Positions 9,879 through 37,580 of a stretch of 64,000 nt of DNA are shown here, piece by piece. The notes under the pieces were generated by a model. The model was not told where the DNA came from. It saw nothing but the letters and a program-made list of their open reading frames with translations, and searched no databases. The position numbers and the translations under genes were made by a program. Source of the stretch: Pedosphaera sp. (lineage in GTDB: Bacteria > Verrucomicrobiota > Verrucomicrobiia > Limisphaerales > Pedosphaeraceae). Positions within the stretch are counted from its first letter, which is position 1; each line of letters begins with the position of its first letter. The DNA lies in contig JAQGPA010000141.1 in NCBI GenBank assembly GCA_028293325.1, positions 1-64,000 on the forward strand. Direction: 5' to 3'.

Positions 9879-10835
9879 TCACCCGCCCTGCGAATCAATT
9901 ACCAGCACGATTTTGCCGCGCACATGTCCGCTCTGGCTTAGCTCCTGCGCCTGTCGTGCCTCGCGCAATGGCAGCACCTTCTCCACATGCACCTTCACCT
10001 TGCCGCTCACCACCAATTCCGCAATCTGCGCCAGTTGATCTCCCCGGCTCTTCGAGTACAGGATTTCCCCCCGCACGCCCAGCGCCGCCGCTTTTTGCTG
10101 ATCCGGCGGTTTTACCAGCGAGACCAGAATGCCGCCCCGCTTCAGCACCTGCCACGACCGTTCCTGCGTCTCGCCGCCAATTGTGTCCAACACCACATCC
10201 ACGTCACGCACGACTTCCTCAAACCGCGTCGTGTGATAATCAATCACCTGATCCGCGCCCAACCCCCGCACAAAATCCACGCCTGGCCCGGACGCCGTGC
10301 CGATCACGTACGCGCCCTTCCATTTCGCAAACTGCACCGCAAAGCCGCCCACGCCTCCCGCCGCCGCATGAATTAAAACCTTTTGTCCCGCGGCAAGGTG
10401 CGCCACATCAAACAAGGCCTGCCACGCCGTCAGCGATGCCGTTGGCAACGCCGCCGCATGCACATCGTCCAACGGCAGCGGCCTTATCGCCACCCGCTTC
10501 GGTGGCGCCAGACAAAACTCCGCATAACTCCCGCTCTCCTCCGCCACCACCCCAAACACCGGATCGCCAATATTAAAACCCTTCACCTCCGTCCCGTGCG
10601 CCTCCACCACACCGGAAAAATCGCTGCCCAATATCTGCGGCAACGGCGCCTTTCCCAAAAGCCCCTCGCGAATCTTCCAATCCACCGGATTCACCCCCGC
10701 CGCATGCACGCGCACCAGCAGTTCATCCGCCGACGGTTCCGGTCGCGGCACATCCTCATAGCTCAAAACCTCCGGTCCGCCGTACCGGTGAATGGTCACC
10801 GCCTTCATCGTTGTGATGCCTGTCATAGTCGCCAT
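9879..10835 (-). CDS. NADPH:quinone oxidoreductase-like medium-chain dehydrogenase
   Basis: 318 residues from ATG 10835, chosen over the upstream in-frame start (10898) because a GGAAAGGA box sits just before it. The GroES-like N-terminal domain (YGGPEVLSYEDVPRPEP...GVNPVDWKIREG) is followed by a Rossmann NADP-binding domain with HAAAGGVGGFAVQFAK. The zinc-binding cysteines of alcohol dehydrogenases are missing, as expected for the zinc-free quinone reductase branch. The family reduces quinones or enones using NADPH. The substrate is unknown. Confidence 0.85.
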   Translation of the reverse strand: MATMTGITTMKAVTIHRYGGPEVLSYEDVPRPEPSADELLVRVHAAGVNPVDWKIREGLLGKAPLPQILGSDFSGVVEAHGTEVKGFNIGDPVFGVVAEESGSYAEFCLAPPKRVAIRPLPLDDVHAAALPTASLTAWQALFDVAHLAAGQKVLIHAAAGGVGGFAVQFAKWKGAYVIGTASGPGVDFVRGLGADQVIDYHTTRFEEVVRDVDVVLDTIGGETQERSWQVLKRGGILVSLVKPPDQQKAAALGVRGEILYSKSRGDQLAQIAELVVSGKVKVHVEKVLPLREARQAQELSQSGHVRGKIVLVIDSQGG

Positions 10836-25158: not shown

Positions 25159-28047
25159 ATGTCGATTTCGTTTGCGTATCCCCGGCCTGAATATCCACGC
25201 CCTGACCGCCAGCGCGGCACCCTGGAAGGGGTTGACTGGCTTAATTTAAATGGTCCCTGGCAGTTCCGTTTTGACCGCTACCGGCGCGGGCTGGAGGAGG
25301 AATGGTTCCGCCCCGACCAGGCGGAGTGGCGCGAACAAATCATAGTACCCTTCTGCTGGGAATCGCTCGCCGCCTGGGGGGAGGGCGATGCCGCCGGCAA
25401 TGAGAACTATTATGCCACGCGCATATTTCTTAATCCGTTGGACGTGAACGCCGCCAATCACCGCTCTGCGCCACGTTATGAAGTGGGCTGGTACCGGCGC
25501 ACCATCGAGCTTCCGGACAACCCGGCCTGGCAGGGTAAACGCATCATCCTTACTATTGGCGCCTCGGATTTCTTCACCGATGGCTGGTGCAACGGCCAGC
25601 ACCTGGGACACCACGAAGGCGGTTATACCCCGTTTGAATTTGATCTCACGGATGCCTTGGGGGCGCCGGGCGCCGACGGCAAGCGCCGCGCCTTGCTGGT
25701 GCTCCGCGTGGAAGACCCCATGAACAACCACGAGCAACCCGTGGGCAAACAATGGCGTTGGTACACCACCACCAGCGGCATCTGGCAGACGGTTTTTGTC
25801 GAACCGCGCAGCGCCGCGCACATCGATTGCTTTCGTGTGTACACGGACATCGATGCGGCCACCGCCCGGTTTCAAATTGACTGTGCGCAGACGGATCAGG
25901 GGACCGTGGCCGTGGAAATTTTCCCGCCGAACAACGGCCCCACCCTCAACGCCACCTTCCCGATCAACAACGGGATGGCGGAAGGCACCGTTAAAATTGA
26001 TCCCTTGTTTCTCTGGAATCCCAACGAACCCAATCTGTACAAGCTCGCGCTCCACTTGCGGCAACCCGGGCCGGTGGACACCGTACGGGGCTACTTCGGG
26101 ATGCGCAAAATTGATTTCGCGCCGGGCGATCCGCCCGAATCTCCCGTGGTGCTGCGTCTTAACGGCGTGGCCCGCTACCTGCGCGGGGCGCTGCATCAAT
26201 CCTATTATCCGGACGGCGTCTATACGGCGGGCGACGTGAGCACCTTAAAGAACGACATTGCCTATGCAAAGAAGGTGGGCTTCAACTTTCTCCGCATTCA
26301 CATTAAGATTGACGATCCGCTGTTGCTTTATTACGCGGACAAGCTGGGGATGCTGTTGATGGCGGACTTTCCCAATTTCGGCGAAGGCGGCGACACCCCG
26401 CTGGGCCGGCGGCGCTATGAGGAAATGATGCGCCAGGCCATCAAGCGGGATTTCAATCATCCTGCCATCTTTGCCTGGTGCACGTTCAACGAAACCTGGG
26501 GGTTTGGCGGGCAGGTGGAGTTTGTTGATTTAATCCATCCGATCAATCCCAAGACCCGTTCGCGCACCAACAACAGACCGGCGGTTTTGGCGCGTGCCGT
26601 CAGCGCGAGTGCCACGGCGGTGGCGGAATTGCCGAAACCCACCACCACGCGCGCCAAGCTCGCCAACCTCAGCGCCCATACCTGGGTGCAATCCATGTGG
26701 GAACTGGCCAAGAAGCTTGATCCCACGCGCCTGATCGAGGACATGAGCGTCGTCCAATGGGAGCATCTGGATTATTTCGCCCACGGCGATACGGACATCA
26801 ACTCCTGGCATTTTTACATCGATGATTATGCGCGGGCCAAGGAACATATTGCCAAGGTGGTGAAATTGACGTTCACCGGCTCCCATTTCAATTACGTCCC
26901 CGGCTACGCGCACAAAGGCCAGCCGCTCATCAACAGCGAGTACGGTGGCGTCGGTGCGCTGGATGGCGACCGCGACGTGAGTTGGTCCTTCAAGTTTCTG
27001 ACCAATGAACTTCGTCGTTACGGACAAATTTCCGCCTACATCTACACGGAACTGCACGACGTGGAATGGGAACATAACGGTTTTATGAATTATGACCGGA
27101 CGCCCAAGGAATTTGGGTATGATCCGGCCTTCATCAACGAAAGCGACGCGTTGCCGGTGGATGCCCCGCCCATTTCCCGCGTCGCTCCCGGCCAGCAAAT
27201 CCGCGTGGATGTTGCCTCCTCCCATTTTTCGTCGCGGCCCTGTCGGGATATGGTCCTGCGCTGGCGGTTGGACGGGATGGACACCCGCGGCCAGGTGCAC
27301 AAAGACCTGGCGCGCGGTCTCGTGCCAATTGCCTTTCCGCATCGCCGCGTGGTGCCGGCGCACACCGTTGAGTTGCAGATGCCGGCGGAACCAATGCTAT
27401 GCACGCTTTGGCTGGATGCCCGCACCGCGGAGGGGACGGTCGTGACGCAAAATTTCATCCAATATTTAGTTTCCGACCATTACCCGCCGCCGCGCGAAGA
27501 ACCGCCGCGCGCGCTGGTGTTGCGGGGTGCGCCCGGCGATTGGGCAAGCGCGGAGTGGAGTCTCGGCGCGGGGGAACGCGAGCGCGAGCGGGCGGAAGAT
27601 TGTTGCTACGGCCAGGGGCATGGGTTTTTTGAGTGGGTGCTGCCGTTGGCGGGCGCGGACATATCCCGGGCGCGGCGCATCCGGGTTTTGGCGGAAACAT
27701 CGTCGCATCGCATCGACACCCCGCAAACCGATGACGATATTTTCCCGACCACGCTCCAGATATTTTTAAATGGAACGCAGGTTTACGATTCGTTCGTTCG
27801 AAATCATCCCCATGATGCGCGGGGTGGGTTAAGTTATTTACGGGGCGGCCTGGGTGCTTACGGTTATCTGGCGCATGCGTTCGCCGAGGACGATCTGCTG
27901 CAACAAATCGCCCGCCATACGCTGGACGATCATTTGCACCTGCGGCTCGTGGTGCCGGCGGATGCGCTGGCCCAGGGCGGGTTGACGGTGTACGGCGCGG
28001 AATGCGGCCGTTATCCGGTCTGTCCCACGGTTATTATTGAATGGTAA
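25159..28047 (+). CDS. Glycoside hydrolase family 2 protein (beta-galactosidase/glucuronidase-like)
   Basis: 962 residues from ATG 25159; the frame is open from 25099, but conserved sequence starts at ISFAYPRPEYPRPD. Layout: sugar-binding jelly-roll domain (about 10-220), immunoglobulin-like domain, TIM barrel with acid/base Glu445 (CTFNETWGF) and nucleophile Glu594 (INSEYGGVG), then extra C-terminal beta domains. No signal peptide is visible. An insertion of about 50 residues after the acid/base loop (LIHPINPKTRSRTNNRPAVLARAVSASATAV) is not typical and breaks up the barrel. It lies in the same direction as the Glf-linked genes after a 140-base gap. Confidence 0.87.
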   Translation: MSISFAYPRPEYPRPDRQRGTLEGVDWLNLNGPWQFRFDRYRRGLEEEWFRPDQAEWREQIIVPFCWESLAAWGEGDAAGNENYYATRIFLNPLDVNAANHRSAPRYEVGWYRRTIELPDNPAWQGKRIILTIGASDFFTDGWCNGQHLGHHEGGYTPFEFDLTDALGAPGADGKRRALLVLRVEDPMNNHEQPVGKQWRWYTTTSGIWQTVFVEPRSAAHIDCFRVYTDIDAATARFQIDCAQTDQGTVAVEIFPPNNGPTLNATFPINNGMAEGTVKIDPLFLWNPNEPNLYKLALHLRQPGPVDTVRGYFGMRKIDFAPGDPPESPVVLRLNGVARYLRGALHQSYYPDGVYTAGDVSTLKNDIAYAKKVGFNFLRIHIKIDDPLLLYYADKLGMLLMADFPNFGEGGDTPLGRRRYEEMMRQAIKRDFNHPAIFAWCTFNETWGFGGQVEFVDLIHPINPKTRSRTNNRPAVLARAVSASATAVAELPKPTTTRAKLANLSAHTWVQSMWELAKKLDPTRLIEDMSVVQWEHLDYFAHGDTDINSWHFYIDDYARAKEHIAKVVKLTFTGSHFNYVPGYAHKGQPLINSEYGGVGALDGDRDVSWSFKFLTNELRRYGQISAYIYTELHDVEWEHNGFMNYDRTPKEFGYDPAFINESDALPVDAPPISRVAPGQQIRVDVASSHFSSRPCRDMVLRWRLDGMDTRGQVHKDLARGLVPIAFPHRRVVPAHTVELQMPAEPMLCTLWLDARTAEGTVVTQNFIQYLVSDHYPPPREEPPRALVLRGAPGDWASAEWSLGAGERERERAEDCCYGQGHGFFEWVLPLAGADISRARRIRVLAETSSHRIDTPQTDDDIFPTTLQIFLNGTQVYDSFVRNHPHDARGGLSYLRGGLGAYGYLAHAFAEDDLLQQIARHTLDDHLHLRLVVPADALAQGGLTVYGAECGRYPVCPTVIIEW

Positions 28048-28054
28048 AAGGAAC

Positions 28055-29248
28055 ATGAACACTTTATTACGAATTTTGCATTTGGAAGATGATTGGAATG
28101 ATGCCGAGTTGATCCGGAGACTCCTGCTGGCGGAAGAATTATCGCGCGACGTTTTGCGCGTGGAAACCAGCGGCGAGTTTCAGGCGGCGCTGGAGGAAAG
28201 GAAGTTCGATTTCATCCTCTCGGATTACACACTCCCTTCGTTCGATGGCATGGGGGCATTAAACCTGGCGCGGGAAAAACAGCCCGAGACGCCGTTCGTT
28301 TTTGTTTCCGGAACCATTGACGAGGAACTGGCGGTGGAAAGCCTCAAGCAAGGGGCCACCGATTATGTCTTCAAGAACCGGCTTTCGCGCCTGGGCCCGG
28401 CCTTGCGCCGCGCGCTGCAGGAGGCCGCCAAACGCGAAGAAGCCCATCGGGCGGAGGAATCGATGCGCCAATCCGAGCATAAATATCGCCAGTTGTTCGA
28501 AAGCCTGGGCGACGCGGCATTTCTGACGGATGTACAAACCGGTCGCATCCTGGACACCAACAAACAGGGCGAGGCTTTGTTGGGCCGCACCCGCGGCGAG
28601 ATCATCGGCAAAAACCAGAACCAGTTTCAAACCGGCGATAAATTTGAGGAACAACGCCGCCGTTTTGCCGCCGAGAGCGAACCCTCGGAGAACCTGGATT
28701 ATGAGGATGAAGTTGCCCGGCCGGATGGCCGGCGGGTGCCAGTGCATATCCGCACCGCGCCATTGGTGCTCTACGAACGCAAGCTGATGATTGGGTTGTA
28801 TCGTGACATCACCGGCCACAAACAGGTGGAAGAACAAATCCAGGAGCAGGCCCGATTGCTCGATCTGGACCCGGACGCCATCCTGGTGCGTGACATGGAG
28901 GACCGGATTCAATATTGGAGCGAAGGAGCCGCGCGCTTGTATGGCTGGCCGAAGGCCGAAGCTTTGGGACAGCCCCTCATCAGTTTGCTCTTTTCGGACC
29001 GGTCGGAATTTGATTCGGCCAGGCAGTTGGTGATGGAACACGGGGAATGGAGCGGAGAACTGCATCAGGTGAACCGGGAAGGACACGAGATTTTGGTGCA
29101 CAGCCGGTGGACATTAATGCGCAACGAACAAGGGAATCCCAAATCCATTTTGCTGGTAAACACGGACATCACGGAACGGGGTCGCAACCGGCTGGCGGCG
29201 AGAGTGGGAAAAGCAAAACCCAGAGTTGAAAGATCACGACGCTTTTAA
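28055..29248 (+). CDS. Receiver-PAS-PAS signalling protein without a kinase domain
   Basis: 397 residues. Receiver domain at about 5-120 with ED pocket and phospho-acceptor Asp57 (FILSDYTLPS), then two PAS/PAC domains (about 150-260 and 270-385), each ending with a PAC-type signature (YRDITGHKQVEEQ, NTDITERGR). In related proteins the second PAS is followed by a histidine kinase beginning with residues like LRAQRMESIG. Here it stops 18 residues later in a basic tail (RLAARVGKAKPRVERSRRF), so it looks truncated or is a sensor adaptor. It begins 7 bases after the GH2 stop. Confidence 0.8.
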   Translation: MNTLLRILHLEDDWNDAELIRRLLLAEELSRDVLRVETSGEFQAALEERKFDFILSDYTLPSFDGMGALNLAREKQPETPFVFVSGTIDEELAVESLKQGATDYVFKNRLSRLGPALRRALQEAAKREEAHRAEESMRQSEHKYRQLFESLGDAAFLTDVQTGRILDTNKQGEALLGRTRGEIIGKNQNQFQTGDKFEEQRRRFAAESEPSENLDYEDEVARPDGRRVPVHIRTAPLVLYERKLMIGLYRDITGHKQVEEQIQEQARLLDLDPDAILVRDMEDRIQYWSEGAARLYGWPKAEALGQPLISLLFSDRSEFDSARQLVMEHGEWSGELHQVNREGHEILVHSRWTLMRNEQGNPKSILLVNTDITERGRNRLAARVGKAKPRVERSRRF

Positions 29249-29330: not shown

Positions 29331-29606
29331 ATGGAAACCAAGACCGGAAACGGCAACGCTGTGACCCTGCAAAAGCTCGTGGATGACTTGAAAGTGGTGG
29401 TTCACGACAGCGAAGAATTGATCAGGAGCAGGGCGGGCCAGGTACGCGAACGGGCCATCGCCGGAGCCAGGGCGGCTGATGAACGCATCCGGAAAAATCC
29501 TTATCCCAGTCTCGGTTTGGTGCTGGGCGCGGGCTTGTTGTTGGGGGTGCTCGCCTTCAATCTGTTTTCCAGCCAGGGTAAGGAATCCTGGGAATCAGAA
29601 GATTGA
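29331..29606 (+). CDS. DUF883 (ElaB/YqjD-like) membrane-anchored protein
   Basis: 91 residues. A helical, charged N-terminal part (LQKLVDDLKVVVHDSEELIRSRAGQVRERA) is followed by RKNPYPSLGLVLGAGLLLGVLAFNLF, the C-terminal membrane anchor typical of this family. E. coli relatives bind ribosomes through the N-terminal part and are induced in stationary phase; whether that holds here is unknown. ATG 29331 follows a GGAAAGGACC stretch about 12 bases upstream. Confidence 0.8.
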   Translation: METKTGNGNAVTLQKLVDDLKVVVHDSEELIRSRAGQVRERAIAGARAADERIRKNPYPSLGLVLGAGLLLGVLAFNLFSSQGKESWESED

Positions 29607-29866
29607 AAACCGTGTGGCAAGAGGCATGGGGAATCCGGCAAAGCCTGGGCGCATCCACCCCGCTCGGCTGGGTCGAGTTGAACCCTCCCATCCGGCTGCC
29701 TTTCCTTCGTCTGCATTCCTATGCCACCGGAACTGCGCGCCGCATCCGGCAGTGGGCCAATGTTGGCGGTGGTTGCGTGAGACGAAATTATTTTCCTTCG
29801 TTGTAAATCTTTTAAAAAGTGCCGCGCGGCGTTTGCAAATGAGCGGAAGAGGACTAAGGTTTGGGC

Positions 29867-31564
29867 ATGGGTGAATCCAAGAAAAAACCAACGTCATCGC
29901 CCAAGGCTGAGAATCCAACGGAAGGAGCCTCACCCCTTGGCGAAATGCTTTCACACGAAGAGTTGGAATCGCTTTCCGCACTTCAGCTCGTCGATCTTAT
30001 CGCGGGGAAATTGCCGCCGCGCCATTCCTCGCTCATGGACTTGATTTATCTGCGCGACCGCATTTCGTCGATCGAGGAGATGAATGACCAGGCCCGCCAG
30101 GCGATTGAGAAGCTGGATGAAATTGTCGAGAAGCTCCGCTCGCCCGCGTTTCGCATCGGCACCTTCCTGATGCCGGTGGAAAACGACAAGGCGCACGTCT
30201 GCATCGGCAACACGGATTATGTTTGCCGCGTCGATCCCAAAATCCCGCTGAACAGCCTGCAAATGGGCCAGCGCGTTTTGTGCAACGAGGCCTTTGCCGT
30301 GGTGCAGGGCCTGGGCTTCGACAAAAACGGCCCGATTGTGCGCATCGATGAACTGCTGTCCGACGGGCGGCTGCGCATCGGCCAGGAAGCGGGCTTCACC
30401 TCGCTGGTGCTGCTGCGGTCGGCGCTGTTGGTGAAGGAGAAACTCAAGCCCGGCATGGAAGTGCGGCTGGATGTGAACCAGCGGGTCGCGCTGGAAGTGA
30501 TCGGCATGGGCCGGCGCATTGAACGCGCGCTGGAAACGGTGGCCGAGATTCCCTGGTCCGCCGTCGGCGGGCAAGGCGAGGCGGTGCAGGCCATTCGCGA
30601 TACCATCGAATTGCCGTTCCTGCATCGCGATTTATTCAAACGCTTTGAGCATACCGTGCCGAAGGGCTTTCTGCTGCACGGCCCGCCCGGCTGCGGTAAG
30701 ACCCTGCTCGGCAAGGCCACCGCCTACAATTTGCGCCAGCAACTCAAGGCCCAAACGGGGGTGGATCATCCCGAGTTCTTTCTCCATGTCAAAGGCCCGG
30801 AGATCTTGAACATGTGGGTTGGCGAATCCGAGCGGCAGGTGCGCGACCTTTTCATTCAATGCCGCGAGCGGGCGCGGGACGGGGCGCTGGCATTTCTGTT
30901 CATCGACGAGGCGGAATCCATTTTGGGCACGCGCCGCGCGGGCCGCTATCACAGCATCCTCAGCACGCTGGTGCCGATGTTCTGCACCGAGATGGACGGA
31001 CTCGAGACGTTGACCAATGTGGTCGTCATCCTGGCCTCGAATCGCGCGGACCTGATTGATCCGGCGATCCTCCGGCCCGGACGCATCGACCGGAAGATCA
31101 AGGTCAACCGGCCCGATCAGGCGGGAGCGCAAGCCATCTACGAAATCTATCTGCGTGAAACCCTGCCACTGGCCGAATCGCGCGCGGACCTGGCGCGGGT
31201 GGTGACCGAGGCGCATTACGCCCACACGCCGACGAACCAGTTTTTGGAAATTGTGTTCCGCAGCGGCAAGAAGGATTTCCTGTATCGCGGCGATCTGGCG
31301 AGCGGCGCGATCATCGCGGCGGTGGTGGAGCGGGCCAAGAGCTTTGCCATCAAGCGCTCCATCGACACCAAACAGGAAACGCAGCTCACCCGGGAGGATT
31401 TGCTCCGCGCTTTGCAGCGCGAATACGAGGAGAACGATCTCTTCCCGCCCACGGACGTGACCGAGGATTGGCTCAAGCTGACCGACTTCGATCCGGAAAA
31501 CGTCATCAAACTCGGCCCCGTGCGACCGCTCAAAAAGGATGCGCTGGGCAGCGGGGTGGTTTAA
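29867..31564 (+). CDS. Proteasome-associated AAA ATPase (Mpa/ARC family)
   Basis: 565 residues from ATG 29867. Domain order matches Mpa/ARC: N-terminal helical coiled-coil (about 60-92), tandem OB domains (about 95-220), then one AAA+ module with Walker A GPPGCGKT (272-279), pore-loop region KGPEILNMWVGE (309-320), Walker B FLFIDEAE (343-350) and arginine-finger region RPGRIDR. It forms a hexameric ring that binds the Pup-type tag through the coiled coil, unfolds substrates and feeds them to the 20S core. Unlike actinobacterial Mpa, it does not end in GQYL but in DALGSGVV. It is first gene of the proteasome locus, 102 bases before dop. Confidence 0.93.
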   Translation: MGESKKKPTSSPKAENPTEGASPLGEMLSHEELESLSALQLVDLIAGKLPPRHSSLMDLIYLRDRISSIEEMNDQARQAIEKLDEIVEKLRSPAFRIGTFLMPVENDKAHVCIGNTDYVCRVDPKIPLNSLQMGQRVLCNEAFAVVQGLGFDKNGPIVRIDELLSDGRLRIGQEAGFTSLVLLRSALLVKEKLKPGMEVRLDVNQRVALEVIGMGRRIERALETVAEIPWSAVGGQGEAVQAIRDTIELPFLHRDLFKRFEHTVPKGFLLHGPPGCGKTLLGKATAYNLRQQLKAQTGVDHPEFFLHVKGPEILNMWVGESERQVRDLFIQCRERARDGALAFLFIDEAESILGTRRAGRYHSILSTLVPMFCTEMDGLETLTNVVVILASNRADLIDPAILRPGRIDRKIKVNRPDQAGAQAIYEIYLRETLPLAESRADLARVVTEAHYAHTPTNQFLEIVFRSGKKDFLYRGDLASGAIIAAVVERAKSFAIKRSIDTKQETQLTREDLLRALQREYEENDLFPPTDVTEDWLKLTDFDPENVIKLGPVRPLKKDALGSGVV

Positions 31565-31666
31565 AATTTCCACGGCATAAATGAAACACCGAGGCAACGT
31601 TGACACGGAAAAGGCCAACCCGCGCACCGCGCCCGTTGAGCCCGGATTTTCCGCGACGAAACACGC

Positions 31667-33190
31667 ATGACACCGCCACCGCTCATCCAGTTCGGGATCG
31701 AAACGGAAATTGGCATTGCGCGCGACAACGATGAGGAACTGGATGTGGTGGCGGAATCCATTGCGTTGGTGCGGAGCGTGGTGGAACCAGGGGTGTTGAT
31801 GCGGTGGGATTATGACAGTGAAGATCCGCACGCGGACATGCGCGGCTTTCACGTCCCGGAATTGCGGCAGGACACGGACGAGGCCAACTATTACGCGCAG
31901 GACGCCCAGCGCGAATTGAGCTACGTGGAAATAAAGAGCGACCTGGTGCTGGGCAACGGCGCGCGGTTCTACAACGACCATGCGCATCCGGAATATTGCA
32001 CGCCCGAGTGCAGCACGCTGGATGAAATCGTGGCGCAGGACCGGGCCGGCGAACGCATCCTGATGGCCTGCGCGAAACGACTCTCCGAGCAATGCGGCGA
32101 CACCATCCGGCTGTACAAAAACAACACCGACTTCCGCGGCCACAGTTACGGCTGCCACGAGAATTATTTGATTTCCCGTTCGCTGCCGTGGGGTTTGCTG
32201 GCGCAGGGCGTGCAGGCCTATCTGGTGACACGACAGATTTTTGCCGGCGCGGGCAAGTTCGCGATCGAGGAAGAGGACCAGTTTATCTCGCCCGATTTTC
32301 AAATCGCGCAACGCAGTGATTTTTTCAGCGAACTGCAAAGCGTGGACACCATGCAGCGCCGGCCGCTGGTGAACACCCGCGATGAACCACACGCCAACCC
32401 CAAGCTCTACCGCCGGTTTCACGTCATAATCGGTGACGCCAACATGTCGCCCTTCGTCACGCGGCTGAAGATCGGCGTGACGGCCCTGGTGCTGGAGGCG
32501 CTCGTGCGCGACCCGCAGCGCGCGTGGCCGCAGATCGAGGAACCGCTGGCCGCGCTGCCGGCCATCTCGCGCGATCCCTCCTTCCGCTGGGAGGTGGCGG
32601 TGCCGGGCGGGCGGACTTCGACCGCGCTGGCGGTGCAGCGCGAATATCTGGAAGGGGTGAAAAAACTTTGCGATTTGACCTCCCCGGCGCGGGCGGCGGT
32701 GGTGGCGGATTGGGAGGCGGTGTTGAACGATTTGGAAACCGATGTGATGCGCTGCCGCAACCGGCTGGATTGGGTGGCCAAACTGGCCATGGTCCGGGAA
32801 TTTCAAGCGGCGCAAAACATTGCGCCGAACAGTCCCTGGCTGCAGAGCCTGGATTTGGAATATCACCGCCTCGACCTGGCAGAGGGGTTATATTATAGCC
32901 TGGAACAGAGTGGGGCCATGCTGGGCGCGCCGGAGGAGTCCGCCGTCCGCTGGGCCATGTGCGAACCGCCCGCCACGACGCGCGCGTATGTCCGCGGCAA
33001 GTGCATTCAAAAATTTCCGGCGGCGGTGGAGTCCGCGCAATGGGATCACATCACCCTGCAGGGGGAGGATGAGTTGATCAAAATTTCATTGATGGATTTG
33101 TTCGCACCGGAGGACATTTTACGGTATGGTAGGATAATTGACAGGGCGCATTCGCCCGGGGATTTGCGAATGCTGAAATCGATGCAATAA
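31667..33190 (+). CDS. dop: Pup/UBact deamidase-depupylase Dop
   Basis: 507 residues, glutamine-synthetase-like fold. The ATP/Mg motif is IQFGIETEIG (Glu12, Glu14). The 'Dop loop' sits between it and the catalytic strand (about 40-90: RWDYDSEDPHADMRGF...), a segment absent from PafA. The catalytic Asp104 is in NGARFYNDHAHPEYCTPE. Dop turns the C-terminal Gln of the modifier into Glu and also removes the modifier from substrates. It is needed here because the tag encoded 12 bases downstream ends in Gly-Gln. Distinguished from the PafA gene at 35017 by the loop. Confidence 0.93.
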   Translation: MTPPPLIQFGIETEIGIARDNDEELDVVAESIALVRSVVEPGVLMRWDYDSEDPHADMRGFHVPELRQDTDEANYYAQDAQRELSYVEIKSDLVLGNGARFYNDHAHPEYCTPECSTLDEIVAQDRAGERILMACAKRLSEQCGDTIRLYKNNTDFRGHSYGCHENYLISRSLPWGLLAQGVQAYLVTRQIFAGAGKFAIEEEDQFISPDFQIAQRSDFFSELQSVDTMQRRPLVNTRDEPHANPKLYRRFHVIIGDANMSPFVTRLKIGVTALVLEALVRDPQRAWPQIEEPLAALPAISRDPSFRWEVAVPGGRTSTALAVQREYLEGVKKLCDLTSPARAAVVADWEAVLNDLETDVMRCRNRLDWVAKLAMVREFQAAQNIAPNSPWLQSLDLEYHRLDLAEGLYYSLEQSGAMLGAPEESAVRWAMCEPPATTRAYVRGKCIQKFPAAVESAQWDHITLQGEDELIKISLMDLFAPEDILRYGRIIDRAHSPGDLRMLKSMQ

Positions 33191-33202
33191 TATATCAAAC
33201 TT

Positions 33203-33373
33203 ATGCCCGACCAAACACAAAAGACACGGTCTCCGGGTGCCGGCCCCACGGGCGGCGGCGAGGGACCCAATTCACCCAAGGTGGAAAAACCAAACACGGA
33301 AGAACTCCTGAAACGGATGCGCAAAGTGGATCCGGACCAGGCCAAACGCTATCGCCAACGCACGGGCCAATGA
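33203..33373 (+). CDS. Prokaryotic ubiquitin-like protein modifier (Pup/UBact)
   Basis: 56 codons. The N-terminal half is Gly/Pro-rich and disordered (RSPGAGPTGGGEGPNSP). The second half has the amphipathic helix expected to bind the ATPase coiled coil (NTEELLKRMRKVDPDQAKRY) and ends RQRTGQ. The R-Q-R-T-G-Q ending is that of UBact, the Pup-like tag described in Gram-negative phyla; actinobacterial Pup ends GGQ or GGE. The last Gln must be deamidated to Glu before ligation to substrate lysines. The stop overlaps the prcB start (ATGA), so the tag and the core subunit are translationally coupled. No strong Shine-Dalgarno box precedes it. Confidence 0.92.
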   Translation: MPDQTQKTRSPGAGPTGGGEGPNSPKVEKPNTEELLKRMRKVDPDQAKRYRQRTGQ

Positions 33374-34140
33374 ACCCTGCGACGCCGATTGCGGGTGACT
33401 TCGTCTCCCTGCTCGCCGCCCACAAGCTGGCGGCACTTCCCTCGGCCCCCTCGTCCACCGCGCCGGTGCAGACGCAGGCGACCACTGTTTTCGCGTTTCA
33501 TTACGCGGATGGAATCCTGATGGCCGGCGACCGCCGCGCGACCGCCGGCAACGTGATTGTTACCGACCGCGTGGACAAGGTGATCGAGATTGACGCCAGT
33601 TCGCTGCTGGCCATTGCCGGCGTGCCGGCCACGGCGTTCGAGATGGCGCGCGTGCTGCAAACCTCCTTTGAGTATTATCGCCGCAGCCAGTTGCAACCCC
33701 TCAGTCTCCCGGCCAAGGTGCGCGCGCTGGCGCGATTGTTGCGGGAGAATTTGCCCATGACCATGCAGGGCGTGGGGGTGGTGGCGCCGCTGTTCGCGGG
33801 CCTGGACCAAACGATTCACCCCGCCAAACCCCGGATTTATTTTTACGATCCCCTCGGCGCGCAATTTCAGGCGGTGGACTATGTGGCTTCCGGCTCGGGC
33901 TCGGGCACCATCCGCAGCATCCTGAGTTTTCAGGAACGCTATGGCAGCCCGCATCCCTCCCAGATGAAATTGGGCGAAGCGGTCAAGTTTGCGCTGCGGC
34001 TGCTGATGATCGCATCGGAGTTTGATTCCGCGACGGGTGGGGTGAATCCCGCAACCCAAACCTACGCCACCATCAAAACCTTGGGCAGCAAGGGCGTGGA
34101 ATCGCTCAGTGATGAACAACAAGCGGCTTTTCTGAAATAA
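33370..34140 (+). CDS. prcB: 20S proteasome beta subunit
   Basis: 256 residues. A 37-residue propeptide precedes Thr38 in TQATTVFAFHY, the nucleophile freed by self-cleavage. Asp54 (MAGDRRAT) and Lys70 (DRVDK) fall exactly 16 and 32 residues after it, matching Asp17/Lys33 of actinobacterial PrcB. SGSGSGTIRSIL in the second half is the usual Ser-Gly-rich active-site loop (known family: GSGS). The protein forms the two inner seven-fold rings of the 20S core and degrades tagged substrates. Its start overlaps the modifier gene, and prcA follows 6 bases after its stop. Confidence 0.95.
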   Translation: MNPATPIAGDFVSLLAAHKLAALPSAPSSTAPVQTQATTVFAFHYADGILMAGDRRATAGNVIVTDRVDKVIEIDASSLLAIAGVPATAFEMARVLQTSFEYYRRSQLQPLSLPAKVRALARLLRENLPMTMQGVGVVAPLFAGLDQTIHPAKPRIYFYDPLGAQFQAVDYVASGSGSGTIRSILSFQERYGSPHPSQMKLGEAVKFALRLLMIASEFDSATGGVNPATQTYATIKTLGSKGVESLSDEQQAAFLK

Positions 34141-34146
34141 CAAGCC

Positions 34147-34887
34147 ATGACTGAGGAACCCTATCGGTGGTTGGAGGCGGTGGCAAACCGCCGGGAGTAC
34201 GTGCGCGATCAACTCAAGGGCGGCTCGCCCGCTTTTGCCGTCAGCCTGCCCGAAGGCATCCTGTTGCTGGGCGTCGGCAGCGGGCAATCCAAGGTTTTTG
34301 AATTATTCGACCGTCATGCACTGGCGGGACTCGGGCATCCGGCCGATATTGAAAAGATTCGGCAGGCGGCCATCGACGCGGCGCATACGGAATCGTTCAC
34401 GCGGGCGCCGGAGGATGTGAGCCTGCGCCGCCTGGTGAGTTTTGGCATGAGCCCGCAATTAAAGACGAATTTCGAACAGATTTTTGCCGCGCCGTTTTTG
34501 GTGGAGCTGTTGCTTGCGGAGATTGGCGCGGAACCGGATAAGGATTTGTTGTTGCGCCTGTATTTTGACGGCGGGTTTCGCTTTCAAACCGGCGGCGTGA
34601 TGGTGGTGGCGAGCCAACCGGAACCAGAAGCGGCCGCGCAAGGCTGGCTGAACCGGGAGTTGGCGGGTCGCCAGGACCGCCGGGAAGTGGCGGATTTGTT
34701 GCTGCAAGCGTGGTGGTGCTTGGTGGAGGGCAAATCTTTCGGCGACGCTTTGCCGGCGGCGGCGGAACGCCAGGCTGGCTGGCGAGCGGCGACCAAGGAC
34801 CGGGTGGTGGAGTTGGGCTGGCTCGCGCGGCACAGCAACCGACCCGCGCATTATGAGGCATTGAGTCTGGCGCAGGCCGGTTTATGA
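34147..34887 (+). CDS. prcA: 20S proteasome alpha subunit
   Basis: 246 residues, NTN-hydrolase fold without a catalytic N-terminal Thr. Its N-terminal helix (EEPYRWLEAVANRREYVRDQLKG) and the strand AFAVSLPEGILLLGVGSGQSKVFELFDRHALAGLGHPADIEKIRQAAID match the outer-ring subunit, which gates entry and docks the ATPase. The middle and C-terminal part is divergent (FGMSPQLKTNFEQIFAAPFLVELLLAEIG). It lies directly after prcB. The assignment as alpha relies on position plus the ring-forming core, so it is firm but the sequence is atypical. Confidence 0.87.
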   Translation: MTEEPYRWLEAVANRREYVRDQLKGGSPAFAVSLPEGILLLGVGSGQSKVFELFDRHALAGLGHPADIEKIRQAAIDAAHTESFTRAPEDVSLRRLVSFGMSPQLKTNFEQIFAAPFLVELLLAEIGAEPDKDLLLRLYFDGGFRFQTGGVMVVASQPEPEAAAQGWLNRELAGRQDRREVADLLLQAWWCLVEGKSFGDALPAAAERQAGWRAATKDRVVELGWLARHSNRPAHYEALSLAQAGL

Positions 34888-35016
34888 GGTGTATATTGTC
34901 GAGGGGCGAACGGGCCACTGCCCGGAATCGTCAGCAGCAATGGAGCAAAGGAGTAGTGGTTCAGGTCGCAGTTACCCATCTCGCGGGCTAACGGTCTGTG
35001 CTGCGGGGAGTTGTTT

Positions 35017-36468
35017 ATGAATCGTATTGCGGGATTGGAAACAGAATATGGGTGCCTGACAAACACGCCGGCGGGCTCGTTCATCGCCGTCGAACGCGTG
35101 CGCGACTGGATTTTTGGCCGCGAGGAATTCGGGTTGATCGATGTGCATCATCGGGATTGGGACGAACCGCCGGGCAACGGCGGTTTTCTGTTTAATGGCG
35201 GGCGGGTGTACATCGACATGGGCCACCTGGAATATTGCACGCCCGAATGTCTCTCCCTGTTTGACATCCTGAAGTACGACCGCGCCGGCGATGCGCTGGC
35301 GATGCACGCCCTCAAGTCGCTGGGGCTCGCGGGCGAAGTGAGTTTCATCCGCAACAACATCGACCACTACACGGGGGCCACGTTCGGCTGCCATGAAAAT
35401 TATCTGGTGCGCCGGTCCGCGCCGCTGACGGAAACCAACGTGCTGTCGCTGCTGACGTTTCTCACCCTGCGGCTGCTGTTCACCGGCGCGGGGCGCGTGG
35501 GCACGACGCTGGCCGCAGAGTGGCGCGGGGAAATGAGCCGGCCCGGCTCCGACGGCGTGTTCCAGATGAGTCAGCGCGCGGATTACATCAACAACGATCT
35601 GTATGAATGGGTGCAATTTAATCGCTCCATCATCAACACCCGCGACGAACCGCTGGGCGATCCGCGCAAGTTTCGCCGGTTGCATTTGCTGCATGGTGAC
35701 ACCAGCGTGTTGCCGGCCACGGTCTTGTTAAAGGTGGGCACGACGTCGCTGATGCTCGACTTGCTGGAAATCAATCATCTCCCCAAGGTGGTGCTGGCGG
35801 ACGCGGTAAAAACGTTTCGCGCGATGTCGCATCAGCCGGAAGGCCCGTGGCTGGTGAAGTTGACGGATGGAAAGAGCGCTGACGCCGTGGAACTGTTGCA
35901 AAAGTTTTTTGACGCGGCCTGGTCGGAATTTCACGGGCGCGATACGGAGACGGATGTTTTGCTGGATGTGTGGGGCTCCACGTTGAAGGCGTTGTCCACG
36001 GAGCCGCAGGCATTGATCGGCAAGGTGGATTGGATCACCAAACGCTGGCTGCTGAAAAAATTCATGGAGCAGGAGAAACTGGATTGGGATGATCCGTGGT
36101 TGAAGGCGCAGGATCTGGAGTTTCATCACATTGACCCGGCGCGCAGCCTCGGTTGGGCGATGAGCACGCCGCCGCCGGCCTGGGACCTGACCGACAAGAT
36201 CATTGAGGCTTCGATCATGGAGCCGCCCAACAATTCCCGCGCCCATGCACGGTCACAAATCATGCATTTGCTGCGCGAACACGCACCGCCGTATTCGATC
36301 GATTGGGAAATCATCGGCGTGGAAGGCATCAACCCGCTCAACCTGTTGAATCCGTTTGATCCCTCGCCACCCGAATTGAAGACCTGGTTTGCGGAATTCA
36401 GCACGGCGTTGAAGGGCAACGCCACCCATACGCGTCCGCCACGGAAAGAGGGAAAAGGCGGCAGTTAA
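35017..36468 (+). CDS. pafA: Pup/UBact ligase PafA
   Basis: 483 residues from ATG 35017, preceded by GGGGAG six bases upstream. Glutamine-synthetase-like fold: RIAGLETEYGC with Glu8 and Glu10 as metal ligands, catalytic Asp67 in GGRVYIDMGHLEYCTPEC, and the nucleotide loop in GCHENYLV. There is no Dop loop, as expected for the ligase. It phosphorylates the C-terminal Glu of the deamidated modifier and joins it to substrate lysines. It sits 129 bases after prcA, so it may have its own promoter. Confidence 0.94.
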   Translation: MNRIAGLETEYGCLTNTPAGSFIAVERVRDWIFGREEFGLIDVHHRDWDEPPGNGGFLFNGGRVYIDMGHLEYCTPECLSLFDILKYDRAGDALAMHALKSLGLAGEVSFIRNNIDHYTGATFGCHENYLVRRSAPLTETNVLSLLTFLTLRLLFTGAGRVGTTLAAEWRGEMSRPGSDGVFQMSQRADYINNDLYEWVQFNRSIINTRDEPLGDPRKFRRLHLLHGDTSVLPATVLLKVGTTSLMLDLLEINHLPKVVLADAVKTFRAMSHQPEGPWLVKLTDGKSADAVELLQKFFDAAWSEFHGRDTETDVLLDVWGSTLKALSTEPQALIGKVDWITKRWLLKKFMEQEKLDWDDPWLKAQDLEFHHIDPARSLGWAMSTPPPAWDLTDKIIEASIMEPPNNSRAHARSQIMHLLREHAPPYSIDWEIIGVEGINPLNLLNPFDPSPPELKTWFAEFSTALKGNATHTRPPRKEGKGGS

Positions 36469-36515: not shown

Positions 36516-37580
36516 ATGATTTTACGGCAGCGTGCCATCGCCCGATTTTATCCGCTGCTGCGCCATTGTTTGAGCGCGGGGCTGCTTTTCACTCTTGTTC
36601 TAGCCAGCGGTTGTCGCAGTTTGCCTGGCACTTTGGCCGCACGCTCCGGGGATGAAATGGTTGTCGCGGGCCAATTTTTCCATACGGGGACGCCGGTGGT
36701 GCTCTGGCTGGATCCGGGCGGCTATGATGGGTATCGCGTGGAGCGGCGGTTCAGTCCCTTGGACAAGGCGGATTGGCTGACCTCGCACGGAGAGGATAAA
36801 AGTTTGGAGACGCCCAACCGTTATACGCTGCGTCGCGATACATTGACACCGGAGCAATTGGAAAAAGTGCGTGGCGGCGGTTGGGACCTGCCGTTGTTGC
36901 AAAGCGTGGTGGACCAGTTCGTGATTCACTACGATGTGGCCGGCACGAGCCGCCAATGCTTCAATATTTTGCACGATCATCGGGATATCAGCGTGCACTT
37001 CATGCTCGACCTGGATGGCACGATTTATCAGACATTGGATCTCAAGGAGCGCGCCCGGCATGCGGGGAGTTCGAATAATCGCTCCGTGGGAATTGAAATC
37101 GCCAACATGGGCGCGTATGGGCCGGAACAGCCGAATCCGTTCGCGGATTGGTATCAGCACAACAAGGGCGTGACGACCCTCACCATTCCCAAACGGTTTG
37201 GTGATGGCGGCGTTCGCACCAAGGGATTTGTCGGGCATCCAGCGCGGCCGACACCCGTGAAAGGCACAATCCAGGGCGACGATTTGATTCAGTATGATTT
37301 CACGCCGCAACAATATGAGGCACTTAGCCGATTGACGGCGGCGTTGTGCAAAGTTTTTCCCAGGTTGAAATGCGATTACCCGCGCGATGCCACCGGCCGG
37401 TTGATTCCGCACATTCTGGCGGAGAGCGAACTGGAAAAATATCAGGGCGTGTTGGGACATTATCATCTGCAGGCCAACAAGGTGGATCCCGGCCCGGCGT
37501 TCCAATGGGAGCGGGTCATCGGTCAGGCGCAGAAACTGTTGCAGAACTCCGCCCGGGGACATGGCCGGGACGGGAATTGA
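36516..37580 (+). CDS. N-acetylmuramoyl-L-alanine amidase lipoprotein (Amidase_2)
   Basis: 354 residues. The signal peptide ends in the lipobox VLASGC (Cys33), so it is an anchored lipoprotein. The Amidase_2 domain is at about 125-300: VIHYDVAGTSRQCF (first zinc His), HAGSSNNRSVGIEIANMG, and VGHPARPTPVKG with the later His/Lys. It should cut the lactyl-amide bond between MurNAc and the peptide stem in the periplasm. It begins about 50 bases after pafA on the same strand, but a role in the proteasome system is not implied. Confidence 0.87.
   Translation: MILRQRAIARFYPLLRHCLSAGLLFTLVLASGCRSLPGTLAARSGDEMVVAGQFFHTGTPVVLWLDPGGYDGYRVERRFSPLDKADWLTSHGEDKSLETPNRYTLRRDTLTPEQLEKVRGGGWDLPLLQSVVDQFVIHYDVAGTSRQCFNILHDHRDISVHFMLDLDGTIYQTLDLKERARHAGSSNNRSVGIEIANMGAYGPEQPNPFADWYQHNKGVTTLTIPKRFGDGGVRTKGFVGHPARPTPVKGTIQGDDLIQYDFTPQQYEALSRLTAALCKVFPRLKCDYPRDATGRLIPHILAESELEKYQGVLGHYHLQANKVDPGPAFQWERVIGQAQKLLQNSARGHGRDGN

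Follow-up and report, generated by a model that had tools for sequence, protein, structure and literature searches.

The window, a stretch of 64,000 nucleotides, carries at positions 29867-36468 of the plus strand six intact and tightly packed open reading frames in the same direction, as established by a frame check. We consider these genes to form a complete operon for UBact conjugation and a proteasome, one that would work like actinobacterial pupylation, a reading to which we assign, on the strength of the sequence, a probability of about 0.8. It is based on matches to UBact models far above their cut-offs, on invariant catalytic residues, on a conserved gene order and on dN/dS values of 0.04-0.20. 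The six genes have intact active sites and are under purifying selection, and both the gene set and the C-terminus of the tag are conserved among relatives; deamidation, ligation and degradation are each predicted from homology. The data support a UBact-type conjugation and proteasome operon in a Gram-negative, Pedosphaera-like verrucomicrobial genome. This agrees with the first-pass annotation, which had claimed a UBact/Pup-type system in a Gram-negative genome of verrucomicrobial type: the UBact models match and the nearest relatives in a Dop scan include Pedosphaera.

In the proposed mechanism the UBact tag would be synthesised with a C-terminal Gln, which Dop would convert to Glu. PafA would use ATP to phosphorylate the gamma-carboxylate of the tag and would then join it to a lysine of the target, and Dop may be able to take the tag off the target again. 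The ATPase ring would recognise the tag, unfold the target and feed it to a barrel of four PrcA/PrcB rings, in which the N-terminal Thr of PrcB would cut it. Counting against such a pupylation-like way of working are the near tie of PafA on the Dop and PafA models, its orthology left undecided by the trees, the Val-Gln that it has for Thr-Thr, an ATPase lacking GQYL and a genome with no PAC2 match.

Gene order

The order ATPase-Dop-tag-PrcB-PrcA-PafA, with all six genes in one direction, had been proposed at first pass, and every gene was confirmed as intact on the plus strand. Most loci of relatives have the same order, which is identical in the actinobacterium Nonomuraea and matches that of pupylation loci as reviewed (PMC3511204). 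The stop codon of the tag gene and the start codon of prcB share an ATGA, as they do in 52 of the 81 distinct tag loci. In 80 of these 81 loci PrcB follows the tag at a short distance, and since the two are such constant neighbours, tag and proteasome may be taken to work together.

The locus is split in some relatives. In 26 of 29 such genomes the tag was located at another site, and at least two Pup-ligase genes were present in 30 of 35 genomes, most of them draft assemblies. Loss of the tag or of the ligase at loci with Dop only was considered and rejected for most of them, the genes being found elsewhere in the genome. Both Pup-ligase paralogues were present in all 10 UBact genomes of the phylum sample. 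Dop, tag and PrcB stand apart from PrcA and PafA in L039, L040, L044, L046, L048 and other relatives, and PrcA and PafA were seen together elsewhere after such a separation in L166, L169 and L170. In Spartobacteria-like genomes it is Dop, often with the ATPase, that is separate from tag, PrcB and PrcA.

The UBact tag and its last residue

The tag (33203-33373) is a protein of 56 residues with the C-terminus RYRQRTGQ. A profile search of this protein had been suggested at first pass as a check, and it came out on the side of UBact: PF20513 was matched at 4e-24 with 84.5 bits (cut-off 27.8) and NF033388 at 5.2e-24 with 84.2 bits (cut-off 35), while the Pup model PF05639, on which the Pup of Nonomuraea scores 1.4e-30, gave no match at E up to 10. 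Profile-profile comparison of UBact and Pup by hhalign returned a weak alignment in the right register that was not significant (probability 0.6%). A homology of UBact and Pup was thus undetectable with either the PF05639 search or hhalign. By these models the system of the window belongs to UBact and is no Pup system, the tag having failed to match the Pup model.

The C-terminal RYRQRTG is invariant in 74 of 74 relatives and is followed only by Gln or Glu. By parsimony on the Dop tree of 80 labelled genomes, a set that was collected via Dop and cannot reveal its loss, the last residue has changed between Gln and Glu 13 times, and at least 10 of these changes are forced by well-supported branches. 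The phylum sample of 388 genomes was collected via the tag and not via Dop. Its 10 UBact genomes comprise six in which the tag ends in Glu and four in which it ends in Gln, and all of them keep Dop and PafA. As Glu-ending genomes keep both enzymes, Dop is kept where deamidation is not needed, and deamidation is not the only function for which it is kept. This agrees with the view that depupylation is the main role of Dop in Glu-ending species (PMC12288473), and it leads to the prediction that removal and recycling of the tag, and not deamidation alone, are the core role of Dop.

A divergent tag was observed in the metagenome-assembled genome L039, where at about 10607-10690 the N-terminal part is kept and the protein ends in ...KKVDPAAARIT instead of ...DPDQAKRYRQRTGQ. 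The altered tag is separated from prcB by unrelated sequence, and no second UBact copy was found in the L039 genome. Either the assembly is wrong here or the tag has lost the end through which it would be conjugated.

Conservation and distribution

Against the close relatives L024, L025 and L068 the dN/dS was 0.04-0.10 for all six genes and 0.09-0.10 for the 56-residue tag, and against the more distant L026 it was 0.06-0.20. Purifying selection acts on every gene of the operon. The small frame of the tag is not a chance frame, because its dN/dS is about 0.1 and that of the other genes 0.04-0.20. UBact was found above cut-off in 10 of the 388 genomes sampled across the phylum, in 69 of 196 genomes of the order to which the window belongs and in 8 of 8 sampled genomes of its family, so the system appears stable within the family and patchy further out. 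Conservation of the small frame in relatives, on which the first-pass annotation had depended, is thereby borne out by its presence throughout the sampled family and by the dN/dS of the tag. In a scan for Dop among named genomes the nearest relatives include Pedosphaera, and nearly all are labelled Verrucomicrobia, with a few metagenome-assembled genomes under other labels.

A decaying relic that is scarcely or never translated could be imagined from a draft genome in 218 contigs with a relative, L039, whose tag has a changed C-terminus. Every frame is intact, however, with dN/dS about 0.1, and UBact is present in all eight sampled members of the family, which makes decay extremely improbable.

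Dop and PafA

Dop (31667-33190, 507 residues) is of the deamidase/deligase type. It matches PF03136 at 7.9e-142 and the solved Dop in PDB 4b0r at 4.4e-105, and its score is 425 bits with the Dop model TIGR03688 and 324.6 bits with the PafA model TIGR03686. The former value is under the equivalog cut-off of 492.3, which was probably set on actinobacterial sequences. PafA runs from an ATG at 35017 (alternative TTG at 35011) to 36468 and is the second Pup-ligase paralogue, with 483 residues. It matches PF03136 at 1.9e-107 and PDB 4b0t at 4.5e-61, and the two family models hardly separate it, with 260.6 bits for Dop and 255.5 bits for PafA (TIGR03686, cut-off 551.3). The PafA-type protein is the probable UBact ligase.

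The intact catalytic residues claimed at first pass, Asp104 of Dop and Asp67 of PafA together with Thr38, Asp54 and Lys70 of PrcB, all align with catalytic residues of solved structures. Asp104 falls on the catalytic Asp of solved Dop and Asp67 on that of solved PafA; the former is invariant in 87 relatives, the latter in 54. Also invariant in the 87 relatives of Dop are Tyr92, Asp94, Glu99, His155, Arg205, Arg221, Arg227 and His241 (A. cellulolyticus numbering), as are the active-site residues of PafA in its 54 relatives. The N-terminal GxETE motif is present in 83 of 87 Dop frames and 52 of 54 PafA frames, the others being broken or truncated. Dop contains the Dop-loop, RWDY..EDPH.D.RGF, and PafA is without it; this loop is common to all Dop and missing in all PafA homologues (PMC8599861). 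AlphaFold models reached a mean pLDDT of 86.8 for Dop and 85.4 for PafA. In Foldseek the best match of the Dop model was the Dop structure 7oxv (1.4e-42, versus 3.0e-33 for PafA), and for the PafA model the PafA structure 4bjr (8.3e-36) was narrowly ahead of the Dop structure 7oxy (2.1e-34).

The phylogeny of both enzymes with actinobacterial homologues, another check proposed at first pass, gave a divided outcome in trees whose actinobacterial PDB rows are incomplete at the ends. The separation of the verrucomicrobial Dop and PafA groups stood, with full support; the orthology of PafA to actinobacterial PafA was left undecided, since the 30-row tree contradicts the 66-row tree on whether these are sister groups, though with little support, and the tests do not choose between them. 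In the 66-row tree Dop grouped with Dop (87/55). The 30-row tree joined both verrucomicrobial paralogues (80/59, not starred), and a constraint placing all Dops together was not rejected (p 0.36).

Both enzymes also differ from their actinobacterial counterparts in the alpha-loop. In PafA it reads W-V-Q-x-N-R in 54 of 54 sequences, where the actinobacterial loop is A-T-T-R-S-R, so that the Thr-Thr is replaced by Val-Gln throughout and the Arg is kept; in Dop it reads D-T-M in 87 of 87, the actinobacterial loop being E-T-T. Specific positions, including the alpha-loop, decide between hydrolase and ligase in mycobacteria, and the threonines of the loop affect the activity of mycobacterial PafA (PMC7947786). 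Given that these threonines matter there, the verrucomicrobial enzymes presumably either solve this step differently or rely less on the loop, and a different solution to the switch between hydrolase and ligase is predicted. The discriminating positions in PafA are mixed: two are PafA-like, namely a Phe in 53 of 54 (C. glutamicum Phe54) and an Asp in 51 of 54 (Asp439), and the others are Dop-like or neither. The alpha-loop of the PafA model has a pLDDT below 50 at residues 194-202, and in actinobacterial PafA the loop is a helix.

The labels Dop and PafA might not be one-to-one with the actinobacterial functions, if a duplication within Verrucomicrobia itself gave rise to the pair and the ligating and cleaving roles differ. 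The joining of the paralogues and the unrejected constraint in the 30-row tree would fit such a history, as would alpha-loops that differ in both paralogues and the near tie of the PafA model in Foldseek. It is nonetheless unlikely, as the Dop-loop is present and absent where expected, the gene positions are those of Actinobacteria, the Phe and the Asp of PafA are PafA-like and Dop grouped with Dop in the 66-row tree.

The proteasome, its ATPase and docking

PrcB (33370-34140), the proteasome beta subunit, matches TIGR03690 at 1.7e-45, PF00227 at 4.5e-27 and PDB 2h6j at 3.9e-28. In the alignment to solved PrcB chains its Thr38, Asp54 and Lys70 are Thr1, Asp17 and Lys33 of the mature protein after a propeptide. 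PrcA (34147-34887) is strongly diverged. No Pfam model matches it, and the matches to TIGR03691 (9e-15, under cut-off) and to solved actinobacterial alpha subunits (PDB 1q5q, 2.5e-7) are both modest; together with the position in the operon, these two matches identify it as the alpha subunit. The PAC2 family has been proposed as a proteasome chaperone by Iyer et al. (PMC2588565); no PAC2 match was found in the whole genome of the window, and the family was found in the controls, C. glutamicum and archaea.

The ATPase, a proteasomal AAA+ protein of the Mpa/ARC type with 565 residues, runs from an ATG at 29867 (alternative TTG at 29861) to 31564. It matches TIGR03689 at 2.8e-125 with 419 bits (under the cut-off of 504.75), as well as PF17758, PF16450, PF00004 and the solved Mpa 7ljf (9.8e-92). 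An N-terminal region is followed by two OB domains, an AAA domain and an Mpa-like C-terminal region that ends in ...ALGSGVV. All 52 relatives have Val or Ile as the terminal residue, and 73% have one of the two at the penultimate position; the linker ahead of this end is variable. None of the 52 has a Tyr in the last four residues, and the GQYL/HbYX motif is absent. Mycobacteria need the C-terminal GQYL, in which the Tyr binds Arg26 or Glu119 of PrcA and the carboxylate binds Lys52 of PrcA (PMC9599533). In the activator pocket of PrcA the equivalent of M. tuberculosis Lys52 is kept, being Lys in 63 of 63 sequences. The equivalent of Arg26 is Arg in only two, one of which is the Nonomuraea outgroup; a weak point is that 42 of 62 sequences carry Lys or Arg in the preceding column, and a shift of one residue could hide a substitute. 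The ATPase of this phylum thus probably docks on the barrel via a tyrosine-less C-terminal Val/Ile motif and not via GQYL/HbYX.

With the Tyr missing from all 52 ATPases and its mycobacterial binding partner Arg26 (PMC9599533) without an equivalent in PrcA, the tagging could also be real and serve regulation or storage, mostly uncoupled from degradation, the 20S barrel acting alone or with other activators; pupylation is kept without the proteasome in some Actinobacteria (PMC3511204). This is very unlikely, because 80 of the 81 distinct tag loci have the tag gene a short way ahead of prcB, including loci whose other genes now lie elsewhere. An ATPase end that is invariantly Val or Ile despite the variable linker, and the invariant PrcA Lys that meets the carboxylate of the activator, likewise point to a coupling that has been kept.

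Relation to known systems

The UBact system, defined by PF20513 and NF033388, is the closest counterpart. The tag matches both models, the genes for Dop, PafA, proteasome and ATPase adjoin it, and in this comparison of models and gene content no difference was found. UBact was reportedly named by Lehmann et al. in 2017.

The actinobacterial Pup-proteasome systems of Mycobacterium, Acidothermus, Corynebacterium and Nonomuraea share the six functions, the gene order, the fold and active site of Dop and PafA, and a tag that ends in Gln or Glu. The window differs from them in a tag without a significant match to Pup, an ATPase without GQYL, altered alpha-loops in both enzymes, a strongly diverged alpha subunit and the lack of a PAC2 match. 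In 2008 Iyer et al. described a Pup-type tag with a conserved G[EQ] C-terminus in Methylacidiphilum of the Verrucomicrobia (PMC2588565). That homologue has the phylum and the G[EQ] end in common with the window, whereas the window is of a Pedosphaera-like lineage and the earlier tag was called Pup before UBact was named. The kind of system is thus already known, pupylation-like genes having been reported from Verrucomicrobia in 2008 (PMC2588565). Novelty at a small scale may lie in the comparative details on how the tag ends, on the ATPase tail and on the alpha-loops, the subscription literature being beyond our search.

A more specific proposal, which we hold tentatively and at somewhat less than even odds, is that verrucomicrobial UBact is a branch with changed interfaces. 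The tyrosine-less Val/Ile motif would open the 20S gate, matched by a PrcA pocket with Lys52 and without Arg26, and the direction of the reaction would be set by the alpha-loops W-V-Q-x-N-R in PafA and D-T-M in Dop, unlike the mycobacterial ones. Gate opening without the HbYX tyrosine is therefore predicted here, and together with the predictions on Dop and on the hydrolase-ligase switch it bears on the docking of bacterial proteasome activators and on the divergence of Dop and PafA. Apart from the citation of 2017, a literature search on UBact biology returned the word in unrelated senses only, and with an experimental record that is nearly nil in the literature searched, complete Gram-negative operons are useful material.

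Surroundings of the operon

Two minus-strand frames are antisense to the operon, at 30632-32866 (744 codons) and 33349-34287 (312 codons). Neither has a Pfam match, and they were rejected as genes, being probably by-products of codon composition. Upstream of the operon are a response-regulator/PAS protein (28037-29248) and a small DUF883-like protein (29331-29606) that is slightly under the Pfam cut-off, and immediately 3' of pafA, on the same strand, an N-acetylmuramoyl-L-alanine amidase (PF01510) is encoded at 36516-37580.
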